The notes under the pieces were generated by a model. The model had not been told where the DNA came from, did no database searches, and was given only the letters and a program-made list of their open reading frames with translations. A stretch of DNA of 50,986 nucleotides from Lysobacterales bacterium (GTDB lineage: Bacteria; Pseudomonadota; Gammaproteobacteria; Xanthomonadales; Xanthomonadaceae): positions 1 to 50,986 of the forward strand of contig JAEKKW010000059.1 in assembly GCA_019510195.1 (NCBI GenBank), written 5' to 3'. Each line of letters starts with the position of its first letter. Within the stretch, counting starts at the first letter, position 1. This document shows positions 45,769 to 50,986 of this stretch, piece after piece. A program made the translations under genes and the position numbers.

Positions 45769-46509
45769 TCAGCGCGGCGCGTCGGGCAGCGGCGACCAGC
45801 GTTGCAGGATCGACGAGAACTCTTCGGCGAATGCGTCGTAGCGCGAAGCCAGGCGATCGACGCGGGTGGCGAGGCGGTTGTAGGCCCACACCGCCGGGAT
45901 CGCCGCGAACAGACCCATCGCAGTGGCGATCAGCGCTTCGGAAATGCCCGGCGCGACGGTGGCAATCGTTGCCTGCTTGAGGCTGGCAAGGCCCTGGAAC
46001 GAAATCATGATGCCCCACACCGTGCCGAACAGGCCGATGTACGGGCTGATCGAACCGGTATTGGCGAGGAATTCGAGATTGTGCTCGAGGCCGTCGAGTT
46101 CGCGTGCGGTGGCGGCGCGCATCGCCCGTTGCGCGCCCTCCAGCTGCAGGCGGCTGTCGGCGCCGCGCATCTGGGTGACGCGGTGGTATTCGCGCATGCC
46201 GGCGTCGAAGATCGCTTCCATGCCATCGATGCCATCGTTCTTGCCGGCGCGGGCATGGAGGTCGCCGAGTTGCGCGCCCGACCAGAAGCGTTCCTCGAAG
46301 CTGGCTGCCTCGCGTTCGGCCGCAGCCAGCTGCGCGCGCTTGCGGAAGATGATCGCCCACGACATGACCGATACCACCAGCAGGATCGCCATCACCAACT
46401 GCACCGGCAGCGATGCATGGATCACCAGCTGCAACGGATTGATCGCATTCGTCGGGAGCGGGCCGGCCGGCAGCGCGGCGGGTACGTCAAGCAGCATCGT
46501 GGAAAACAT
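45769..46509 (-). CDS. tolQ: Tol-Pal system protein TolQ (ExbB family)
   Basis: Pentameric inner-membrane part of the Tol motor. ATG 46509 overlaps the ybgC stop (TGATG) and gives 246 aa; a TTG one codon earlier is possible. Three transmembrane segments: LVMAILLVVSVMSWAIIF (about 37-54), a second in GSISPYIGLFGTVWGIMISF, and a third in GISEALIATAMGLFAAIPAV. The conserved Thr/Gly residues facing the proton path are in the last two. The cytosolic loop between the first and second helices is as expected. Confidence 0.95.
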   Translation of the reverse strand: MFSTMLLDVPAALPAGPLPTNAINPLQLVIHASLPVQLVMAILLVVSVMSWAIIFRKRAQLAAAEREAASFEERFWSGAQLGDLHARAGKNDGIDGMEAIFDAGMREYHRVTQMRGADSRLQLEGAQRAMRAATARELDGLEHNLEFLANTGSISPYIGLFGTVWGIMISFQGLASLKQATIATVAPGISEALIATAMGLFAAIPAVWAYNRLATRVDRLASRYDAFAEEFSSILQRWSPLPDAPR

Positions 46510-46955
46510 CAATCACCTGTGCGTTCGAGCAACTTCAATTGTTCGTACAAGGCCGGCGGCAATGCACACGGCCGGAAAGTTCGTGCGAACAGCGCGGCGA
46601 TCTTCACCTCGCTGTCGACCAGCAGCGTTCCATCGCGACGGACCTCCTGTTTCAGCACCAGCGATGCCCGCCGGCATTCGCGCAATTCCACGCTCACCGA
46701 CAAGGCATCGTCGAGTCGCGCGGGAGCACGGAAATCGACCTGCATCGCCCGCACCACGAATACCAGACCGTCGCGCTCGCGCAACAGTTCCTGGCCGTGG
46801 CCGTTCGCGCGCATCCACTCGCTGCGTGCGCGCTCCATGAAGGCGAGGTACTGCGCGTGATACACGACGCCACCGGCATCGGTATCTTCCCAGTACACCC
46901 GCAGCGGCCACTGGAAGACAAGCCCCGCGGCACCGGCGGTTGGGCCTGCGTTCAA
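46509..46955 (-). CDS. ybgC: Tol-Pal-associated acyl-CoA thioesterase YbgC
   Basis: Hot-dog-fold thioesterase at the head of the tol-pal genes, thought to act in phospholipid metabolism. The motif EDTDAGGVVYHAQYLAFMERAR has its catalytic Asp in DTDAGG. The TTG at 46955 has GGGAG six bases upstream and overlaps the natural ruvB stop in the other frame (TTGA), giving 148 aa. The frame is open further upstream, but that part overlaps ruvB and is not conserved. The start choice matters because it marks where the intact ruvB should have ended. Confidence 0.9.
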   Translation of the reverse strand: MNAGPTAGAAGLVFQWPLRVYWEDTDAGGVVYHAQYLAFMERARSEWMRANGHGQELLRERDGLVFVVRAMQVDFRAPARLDDALSVSVELRECRRASLVLKQEVRRDGTLLVDSEVKIAALFARTFRPCALPPALYEQLKLLERTGD

Positions 46956-47056
46956 ACCAGGCTCCCGGAGTCCCCGGCATCGGAGCCACCGCGCGGCTTC
47001 AGCCCGAGATGGCGCCAGGCCTTGTGGGTTGCCATGCGTCCGCGCGCGGTGCGCAC
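46952..47056 (-). pseudogene. ruvB: Out-of-frame remnant of the ruvB C-terminus
   Basis: Read from 47056 down to a TGA at 46954-46952, this frame encodes [20 protein letters not shown] and a short Gly/Ser tail. That is the characteristic end of RuvB (E. coli: QRTPRGRMATTRAW). It is two bases out of phase with the upstream ruvB frame. Its stop overlaps the ybgC start as coupled genes do, so this was the original reading frame. Confidence 0.85.
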
Positions 47057-47865
47057 AGGTTGAGCAGGCGGCGATCGAGCTCGTCGAAACCCTCGGGGTC
47101 GACCTTGAGCATCTGCATCGCCGCGCGCGCGGTTTCATGATCGATGCGGCCATCCGCGCGAACCTGTGCGTAATCGCGCACGCGCCGCAGCAGGCGGTTG
47201 GCGATGCGCGGGGTTCCGCGCGAACGGCGGGCGATCTCGGCCGCGCCCTCGCCTTCGCAATGGATGCCGAGGATCTGCGCCGAACGCACGACGATCTGCG
47301 TCAATTCGGCGGCGCTGTAGAACTCGAGGCGCTGGACGATGCCGAAACGATCGCGCAACGGAGCGGTCAGCAATCCCGCGCGCGTGGTCGCGCCGACCAG
47401 GGTGAACGGCGGCAGGTCGAGCTTGATCGAGCGCGCGGCCGGGCCTTCGCCGATCATGATGTCGATCTGGAAATCCTCCATCGCCGGATACAGCACTTCC
47501 TCGACCACCGGCGAGAGGCGATGGATTTCGTCGATGAACAGCACATCGTGCGGCTGCAGGTTGGTGAGCAGCGCGGCGAGATCGCCGGCGCGTTCGATCA
47601 CCGGGCCACTGGTGGCCCGCAGGCCGACGCCAAGTTCGTTGGCGATGACATGCGACAGCGTGGTCTTGCCGAGTCCGGGCGGACCGAAGATCAGCACGTG
47701 GTCGAGCGCTTCGCCGCGACCGCGGGCGGCGTCGATGTAGATCTGCATCTGCTCGCGCACCTGTAGCTGGCCGAGATAGTCGGCCAATCGCCGCGGACGG
47801 ATGCTGGCTTCGCTGGCCTCGTCCTCGCGGGTAGCGTCGGCGGCGATGATGCGGTCTTCGGTCAT
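46999..47865 (-). CDS. ruvB: Holliday junction branch-migration ATPase RuvB, C-terminal domain disrupted
   Basis: RuvB is the hexameric motor that drives branch migration with RuvA. The AAA+ part is intact: [11 protein letters not shown], Walker [10 protein letters not shown] (61-69), Walker [12 protein letters not shown] (Asp112, Glu113), sensor 1 LVGATTRAG and Arg-containing [17 protein letters not shown]. Family match stops near residue 268 ([14 protein letters not shown]). The protein then ends with 19 unrelated residues, at 288 aa instead of about 335-345. About 40 codons of the winged-helix DNA-binding domain are missing, and the true C-terminus follows out of frame (46952-47056). No ruvA or ruvC is in view. 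Real mutation or assembly error cannot be told apart here. Confidence 0.88.
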
Positions 47866-47896: not shown

Positions 47897-49810
47897 TCAT
47901 ATTTGCACCTGCGTGCCCAGCTCCACCAGGCGATTGCTCGGGATGTTGAAGAAATCGCTGGCCGGCGCGGCGTTGCGCATCATGAAGGCGAACAGCTTGT
48001 CGCGCCAGATCGGCATGCCCTGGCGACGGCTGGCGATGATGCGCTCGCGGCTGGCGAAATAGGTGGTTTCCATCGGGTCGAGGCAGATCTGGCTGCAGTC
48101 GGCCAGTTGCATCAGCGCGCGCGGCACGTCCGGCGTTTCCATGAAGCCGAAGCGGACGATCACCCGGGAGAACTCGTCGCCGATCGATTGCACCACCAGT
48201 CGCTGTTCGCGCGGCGCCATCGGCACCGTCAGCGTCACCACCGTGAGGAAGATGTTGCGCGCGTGCAGGACGCGGTTGTGCTTGAGATTGTGCAGGAAGG
48301 CATGCGGCACCATCGTCTTGTCGGCAGTCAGGAAGATCGCCGTGCCTTCGACCCGTACCGGCGGCGCCAGCATCAATCCGGGCAGGAAGGTGTCGAGCTG
48401 GATGCCGTCTTTCTGCATTTCCTCGCGCAGCAGATCGCGGCCGCGCCGCCAGGTGCGCATCATCGTGAAGATGACGAGGCCGAGCAGTAGCGGGAACCAC
48501 GCGCCGTCCATGAACTTGGCGAGGTTGGCGCCGAGGAAGGCCACGTCCACCAGCACGAAGATCGCCGCCGCCGGCCAGAACAGCATCGGCATCTTCCGCG
48601 TGTTGCTCAGGTAGACGATCATCAGGATGCTGGTCATCAGCATGGTGCCCGTCACCGAGACGCCATAGGCCGTCGCCAGTCGCGTCGCGCTGCCGAATCC
48701 GATCACCACCGCGATCACCAGCAGGAGCAGCGTCCAGTTGATCGCGGGCACGTAGATCTGGCCGATGGTGTCCTTGGAGGTGTGGCGGATCTGCATGCGC
48801 GGGATGTAGCCGAGCTGCATCGCCGAACGCGCCATCGAGAACGCACCGGTGATCACCGCCTGCGACGCGATGATCGCCGCCATGGTCGCCAGCGCCAGCA
48901 TCGGGATCAACAGCGGTTTCGGCACCGATTCGTAGAAGGGATTGCCGATCGATTCCGGGCGCACCAGCACGTGCGCGCCCTGCCCCATGTAATTGAGGAT
49001 CAGGCACGGTTGCACCACGAAATACCACGCCACGCGGATGGGCTTCACGCCAAAATGGCCCATGTCGGCGTAGAGCGCCTCGCCACCGGTGACGGCCAGC
49101 ACGACCGCGCCGAGGATGGTGAGCCCGGCGATGCCATGGTCGAGGAAGAACTTCAGGCCCCACCACGGATTGAGCGACTTCAACACTTCCGGCGCCATCC
49201 GGATGTTCCAGATGCCGAGCAGCGCGACCGCGATGAACCACAGCAGCATCACCGGGCCGAACACGCGGCCGACGCGCGCGGTGCCGTAGCGCTGGCCGAC
49301 GAACAGGACGACGAGGATGACCACCGAAATCGGCAACACGTAATGGCTGAACGCCGGCGTCGCGACATTCAGGCCCTCGACCGCCGCCAGCGTGGTCATC
49401 GCCGGGGTGATCACGCCGTCGCCGAAGAACAGCGACGCGCCGAAGATGCCGAGGATGCCGATGCGGTACATCAGTTTCGGCATCTTCTTGCCGAGCGCGC
49501 CCTGGGCCAGCGCCATCAGCGCCATGATGCCGCCCTCGCCTTCGTTGTCGGCGCGCATGATGATGGCGACGTACTTCACCGTCACCACGAACACGATCGT
49601 CCAGATGATCAGCGACAGCAGGCCGAGCACGGTGTCGTGGTTCACCGCCAGCTGGTAATGCGGAGTGAAGGCTTCCTGGATGGTGTACAGCGGGCTGGTG
49701 CCGATGTCGCCGAACACCACGCCGAGCGCGCCAACCGCCAATGCGGCAAGCGGGCCTGCGTGGCCGTGCGTCGACTGCGAACCGGAATGTTCGTCCGTGG
49801 ATGCGTTCAT
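47897..49810 (-). CDS. kup: Low-affinity potassium transporter Kup, copy 1
   Basis: K+/H+ symporter of the KUP/HAK/KT family in the inner membrane. At 637 aa it is full length. It opens with [20 protein letters not shown] (family signature), followed by about twelve transmembrane helices (1-about 440), with [18 protein letters not shown] and [14 protein letters not shown] cytosolic C-terminal domain has [20 protein letters not shown] and ends in [12 protein letters not shown]. It lies between ruvB (31 bases) and a second kup (14 bases). PtsN, encoded in this window, controls K+ uptake in other bacteria. Confidence 0.95.
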
Positions 49811-49824
49811 GGGCTCGTGTCAGG

Positions 49825-50986
49825 TCAGATCTGGACCGGCGCGCCGAGTTCGACCAGCCGGTTGCCGGGAATGTGGAAGAACGAGGTCGCCGACACCGCA
49901 TTGCGGTGCATCACCGCAAACAGCTTGTCGCGCCAGATCGGCATGCCCTGGTGGCGACTGGCGACGATGGTCTCGTGGCTGGAGAAATAGGTGGTGTCCA
50001 TCGGATCAAGGCACATCTGGCTGCAATCGGCCAGTTGCATCAGCGCGCGCGGCACGTCCGGCGTTTCCATGAAACCGAAGGCGATGGTGATGCGATAGAA
50101 ATCGTCGCCGATCGACTGCACCTTCAGCCGCTGGTCGCGATGCGCATGGGGCACCGTCAGCGTCTTCACGTTGAGGAAGACATTGCGTTCGTGCAGCACC
50201 TTGTTGTGCTTGAGGTTGTGCAGCAGCGCGTGCGGGACCAGGCCCGGGTCCGCCGTCAGGAAGATCGCCGTTCCCGGCACCCGCAGCGGCGGCGACAGCA
50301 TCAGTCCGGGCAGGAAGGAGTCGAGCTTGATGCCCTCTTTCTGCACTTCGGCGTGCAGCAATTCGCGGCCGCGGCGCCAGGTGCGCATCAGGGTGAAGAT
50401 GATCGCCGCCAGCAACAGCGGGAACCACGCGCCGTCGAAGAACTTCACCGCGTTCGCCACCAGGAAGGCGAGGTCGACCGTGAAGAACACCAGGCACAAC
50501 GGCAGTACCCAGCGCCGCTGCTTCGGCCACAGGCGGTTGGCCACCAGCGCCAGCAGCATGGTATCGATCAGCATCGTGCCGGAGACCGAAACGCCGTAGG
50601 CGGTGGCCAACGCGGTGGATGTGCGGAACGTCATCACCAGCGCGATCACCGCCACCATCAGGAACCAGTTGATGCCGGGCACGTAGATCTGGCCGATGGT
50701 CTCGCGCGAGGTATGGCGCACGAACATGCGCGGGATGTAGCCGAGCTGCATCGCCGAACGCGCCACCGAGAATGCGCCGGTGATGACCGCCTGCGAGGCG
50801 ATGACGGCCGCCATCGTCGCCAGCACCACCATCGGCACCTGCGCCCAGTCGGGCACCGCCTGGAAGAACGGGTTGTCCTTGGCGTTCGGGTCTTCCAGCA
50901 GCAACGCGCCCTGCCCGAGATAGTTCATCACCAGGCACGGCAGGACGACGAAATACCAGGCCGCGCGCATCGGCTTCGCGCCGAAA
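49825..50986 (-). CDS. Potassium transporter Kup, copy 2 (5' end outside window)
   Basis: Second KUP-family transporter, in tandem with copy 1. The frame is open to the right edge, so about the first 240-260 residues are missing. The visible part starts at [19 protein letters not shown] and covers the later transmembrane helices and the full cytosolic domain ([20 protein letters not shown], ending [12 protein letters not shown]). It is strongly similar to copy 1 along its length, with many conserved blocks ([23 protein letters not shown]), so a tandem duplication is likely. Confidence 0.93.

Follow-up and report, generated by a model that had tools for sequence, protein, structure and literature searches.

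RuvB is known as the Holliday junction branch migration ATPase. As the motor is described in the passages of PMC9477746 that deal with it, RuvB grips one strand of DNA through its C-terminal head domains (residues 255-330), with four conserved arginines, and the hairpin that binds RuvA sits on the large ATPase subdomain. The RuvB protein of a relative of the genome studied here matches 18 solved sequences, 9dx3 and 7pbl among them. E. coli ruv mutants live on with RecG and other pathways.

The window, that is, the whole stretch of 50,986 nucleotides that was analysed, carries a ruvB gene whose P-loop domain and AAA lid are complete, as in the known protein. It differs from known RuvB in that the head domain is not made, because 40 codons are deleted and the last 34 are out of frame. 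The neighbouring genes are collinear with those of the relatives. Like the loss-of-function ruvB alleles familiar from E. coli, the allele in the window would remove RuvAB branch migration, with RecG remaining; unlike the E. coli ruv mutants, it is known from one draft assembly alone.

The reading frame and domains of ruvB

The features of the locus, with the evidence for each, are as follows.

46509..46955, minus strand: ybgC-type thioesterase with its TTG start at the junction (open reading frame, Pfam 4HBT_2 and 4HBT)
46952..47056, minus strand: former 3' end of ruvB, still open in its own frame but shifted relative to the present one, corresponding to the relatives' codons 311-344 plus stop (translation against relatives, tblastn)
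46999..47865, minus strand: ruvB frame as found, 288 aa, of which 270 are native and 18 frameshifted (open reading frame listing, Pfam, protein identity to relatives)
47056..47057, minus strand: deletion joint, at which the relatives' codons 271-310 and one further base (121 nt) are absent (blastn, MAFFT, joint sequence)

When the gene is aligned by MAFFT with those of six relatives from the same genus (G005, G015, G002, G008, G007 and G014), one 121-nt gap appears in the window's row, bounded by 47056 and 47057. The remaining gaps in its row before the end of ruvB total 6 nt and lie near the 3' end, where the G007 gene is longer. The same two-piece match at ruvB was obtained by blastn in G005, G015, G002 and G007, and the second tblastn piece of the locus, with a full-length relative protein as the query, comprises residues 311-344. 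The 809 nt before the joint, the missing 121 and the 105 after it give the same length as the gene of G005, whose intact RuvB has 344 codons (344 aa). The 121 nt amount to 40 codons and one extra base, so the deletion shifts the frame of ruvB, and the readable product consists of the native residues followed by unrelated ones. Residues 1-276 are 91-96% identical to the proteins of G005, G002, G008, G015 and G007. The best named matches to the window's RuvB (84-89% among the matches listed) come from Luteimonas, Lysobacter, Stenotrophomonas, Pseudoxanthomonas, Xanthomonas and a few unclassified MAGs, so that the genome probably belongs to the family Lysobacteraceae (Xanthomonadaceae).

Beyond the joint, the old tail (VRTARGRM...SLV*; 105 nt, 34 codons) is open in the old frame. 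Its stop codon, at 46952-46954, overlaps the TTG start of ybgC (TTGA), and 43 nt now separate the new ruvB stop from that TTG. The first-pass annotation of this DNA had proposed an out-of-frame internal deletion in the winged-helix (head) domain, with about 40 codons missing and the genuine RuvB ending following in another frame up to the overlap with ybgC. The gap against the six relatives, the remnant of the head domain in another frame and the translation of the tail bear this out. That annotation allowed for either a real loss or an assembly or consensus error. A further part of that annotation, a normal AAA+ region followed by 19 unrelated residues, is right about the native core, but the unrelated residues, which follow 270 native ones, number 18.

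The P-loop domain RuvB_N (PF05496) is recognized in residues 22-180 with 272.6 bits over profile positions 1-159 of 159, and the AAA lid (PF17864, AAA_lid_4) in residues 183-256 with 113.5 bits over positions 1-74 of 74. The C-terminal winged-helix family RuvB_C (PF05491) falls below its cut-off of 24.7 bits, with 14.5 bits over positions 56-71 of 72. This remnant (47006-47053) is read in a different frame from the core and is the sole RuvB_C match in the 2.19-Mb assembly. Most of the C-terminal head domain corresponds to the deleted and frame-shifted parts of the gene. The head-domain arginines are absent from the readable product: in the numbering of the relative protein L003, Arg293 falls within the missing codons, and Arg312, Arg315 and Arg317 fall in the out-of-frame part. 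They are probably the Arg291, Arg310, Arg312 and Arg315 of PMC9477746, a correspondence that does not come from an alignment to that species.

Related genomes, other copies and neighbouring genes

The relatives were represented by 60 genomes, the window's own included, with 16 other genomes of the same genus. In 15 of these 16, a long ruvB match sits in an open frame of 349-407 codons; the sixteenth, G011, has ruvB residues 1-34 only, ending 6 bases from a contig end. The wider family survey covered 395 genomes from a larger group, again including the window's own. RuvB_C scored over the cut-off in 382 of them, the window's genome had the remnant below the cut-off, and 12 had none. A search of these 12 with the full-length protein found no match at E<=1e-12 in 10 (G011 is one of them) and a match running to a contig end in the other 2; 10 of the 12 are 71-85% complete. 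Relatives that naturally share a short RuvB like the window's, which would have counted against the first-pass reading, were seen neither in the 60-genome set nor in the 395-genome survey.

The surveys yielded several side observations. The two more complete genomes among the 12, G357 (96%) and G407 (94%), lack any ruvB match at E<=1e-12; either their assemblies are fragmented and have gaps there or the gene is truly lost. In G052, another member of the order with 2 contigs and a listed completeness of 100%, ruvB lies in two frames (L132 and L135, G052:C1:2414390-2415363) split near residue 165; it is a candidate frame break, either real or a sequencing error. In the one-contig genome G316, which is 57% complete, ruvB lies in several frame pieces (L133, L134 and L136, G316:C1:832604-833609), and that assembly may be rich in indels.

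The window's own genome is a 2.19-Mb draft of 149 contigs that is 90.39% complete, so that about 10% may be missing. Searches of this draft with the RuvB_C family, the full-length protein of a relative and 161 nt of a relative's DNA turned up neither a second ruvB, such as the intact one that the first-pass annotation had considered, nor the missing stretch at another place. The family and protein searches returned the ruvB locus and weak AAA matches. The next match of the protein query, on contig C34 (32% over 119 residues), was rejected as one of these and may be a RarA-type AAA ATPase. The DNA query gave 42 weak matches, none longer than 42 nt and the best being a stretch of 20 nt on C108 (E 0.002); of the 42, just the two 20-nt flanks are ruvB sequence. 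The partner genes ruvA and ruvC, also considered earlier, are both present on contig C133, and recG is present in the assembly.

The neighbouring genes go by the names ybgC, tol and kup. The ybgC frame is open according to the listing of reading frames. Two tandem kup-type potassium-transporter genes lie upstream of ruvB, at 47897-49810 and 49825-50986. The outer of these (49825-50986) is cut by the end of the window's contig, 3.9 kb from the joint at 47056/47057, and C133 ends in the same kup gene. The two contigs share an 18-nt overlap with one mismatch within kup and, judging from synteny with G007, are adjacent but unjoined.

A screen of the window plus C133 (76.6 kb) against G007 found no other broken gene near ruvB, with 11 of its 71 rows left undecided. 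Rows were flagged on whether their 3' ends agree with the relative's stop, and unflagged rows therefore say nothing about breaks near 5' ends. The greedy choice of reading frames admits antisense shadow frames, such as the row picked over ybgC, and some stretches, 37.6-40.4 kb for example, have no row. One of the 22 flagged rows is ruvB, and 16 of the other 21 were inspected. Ten of these have stops in the first part only, after which the frame stays open as far as the stop that both genomes share; the early stops were taken to lie upstream of the start codon. The other 6 are undecided: they are either short or interrupted by stops on the window's side, and were taken for shadow frames, although two of them show 79% and 83% identity. 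Five more flagged rows, at 64-75% identity, fall outside the inspection.

Age and origin of the deletion

The ruvB core (269 codons) gives dN/dS values of 0.029-0.120 between the window's genome, G000, and five relatives, and of 0.027-0.098 among those five. Values for four neighbouring genes are similar (for tolB, from four relatives instead of five), and only one of the 269 core amino acids is unique to G000. The highest of the 15 pairwise values, 0.120 for G000 and G007, exceeds the next, 0.098. This faint hint of relaxation is not relied on, given that high values against G007 are seen for neighbouring genes too. For the terminal branch of G000, three-point arithmetic with G005 and G008 gives an estimate of about 0.23 synonymous and 0.008 non-synonymous substitutions per site, from which it follows that normal selection acted on ruvB along almost the whole branch. 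Being so short, the old tail is of little help: it differs from those of four relatives of equal tail length by 3-7 non-synonymous and 4-6 synonymous codons, and these four differ among themselves by 3-7 and 2-8, respectively. With the core under normal purifying selection, the break is either very recent or not real, and an artefact would explain the absence of decay just as well.

The contig is free of N. The left flank in the window ends in ...AACCT, and the missing piece has ...TTCCTG at its right end in G005, G015, G002 and G007 and ...TTCCTC in G008. CCT is common to both ends but one base out of register, and a CCT-to-CCT event would remove 120 nt, not 121. No shared repeat of useful length exists at the joint, as judged from the relatives' version of the missing piece, which leaves an assembler without an overlap at which to collapse the sequence. 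A repeat-mediated deletion was considered and rejected, no direct repeat with the right spacing being found in G015 or G005. In G015, imperfect inverted repeats lie near both deletion ends (18 nt at 78%, 15 nt at 80%), and G005 has just the 8-nt core of the second; neither was given weight.

On balance we lean slightly towards a recent loss-of-function deletion of 121 bp in the sequenced cells, which would have inactivated the only ruvB found, rather than towards an error of assembly. A clean single gap against six relatives, no N, no repeat at the joint and no other broken gene found are features of the sequence that argue for a real event and against an artefact. De Bruijn assembly, moreover, needs reads that carry a joint. 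The recency read from the core dN/dS and the presence of ruvA, ruvC and recG also fit a real loss. A real ruvB null would be rare, because RuvB_C is nearly universal in the family, and this, the fragmentation and incompleteness of the draft and the lack of decay count against it. The competing explanation, that the true gene has about 344 codons and that 121 nt were lost through low coverage, a strain mixture or a chimeric read during assembly or amplification, is a serious one to which we assign somewhat less than an even chance. It is favoured by the number of contigs, by the stumble of the assembler in kup so close to the joint, by the core's lack of any clear sign of relaxed selection and by the open frames of the 15 other same-genus genomes. 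According to the passages of PMC11017572 that bear on the matter, pseudogenes made by assembly are common at low coverage and many bacterial pseudogenes are assembly errors; the paper counts frameshifts and internal stops, and these passages do not treat deletions of 100 bp.

Two readings in which the short protein is kept are far less probable. It is very unlikely that a natural Lysobacteraceae population has fixed a headless RuvB while keeping RuvA, RuvC and RecG, with the motor having a role of its own or poisoning the complex and branch migration proceeding through RecG or other enzymes. It is likewise very unlikely that a function keeps the truncated RuvB (motor core and 18 new residues) in place, or that recoding restores the tail. 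The conserved core and the uninterrupted frame up to the joint fit such retention, but recency accounts for the conservation, no slippery heptamer is visible by eye at the joint, and the family survey offers no parallel. Among the papers listed on RuvB truncation, C-terminal or dominant-negative RuvB, ruvB pseudogenes, or ruvB mutants with RecG, no report of a case like this one was found.

If the deletion is real and recent, as we favour, a single event would have taken out codons 271-310 and shifted the rest of ruvB out of frame. The product would keep the ATPase core, with ATP binding, and the hairpin that contacts RuvA, and could not grip DNA. RuvAB branch migration would be lost, perhaps with some interference, and the population would survive by means of RecG and further pathways. 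As the ruvB stop no longer overlaps the start of ybgC, coupled translation of that gene might be reduced too.

Significance of the apparent break

The explanation is an ordinary one either way, a mutation or an assembly mistake, and neither outcome raises a new question. If the deletion is an artefact, it is a caution for claims about gene content that rest on single draft assemblies. If it is real, the draft genome has one more broken repair gene, and the organism would be a natural case of RuvA and RuvC persisting without a working RuvB; a headless motor core, if it does assemble, would have no head with which to grip DNA.
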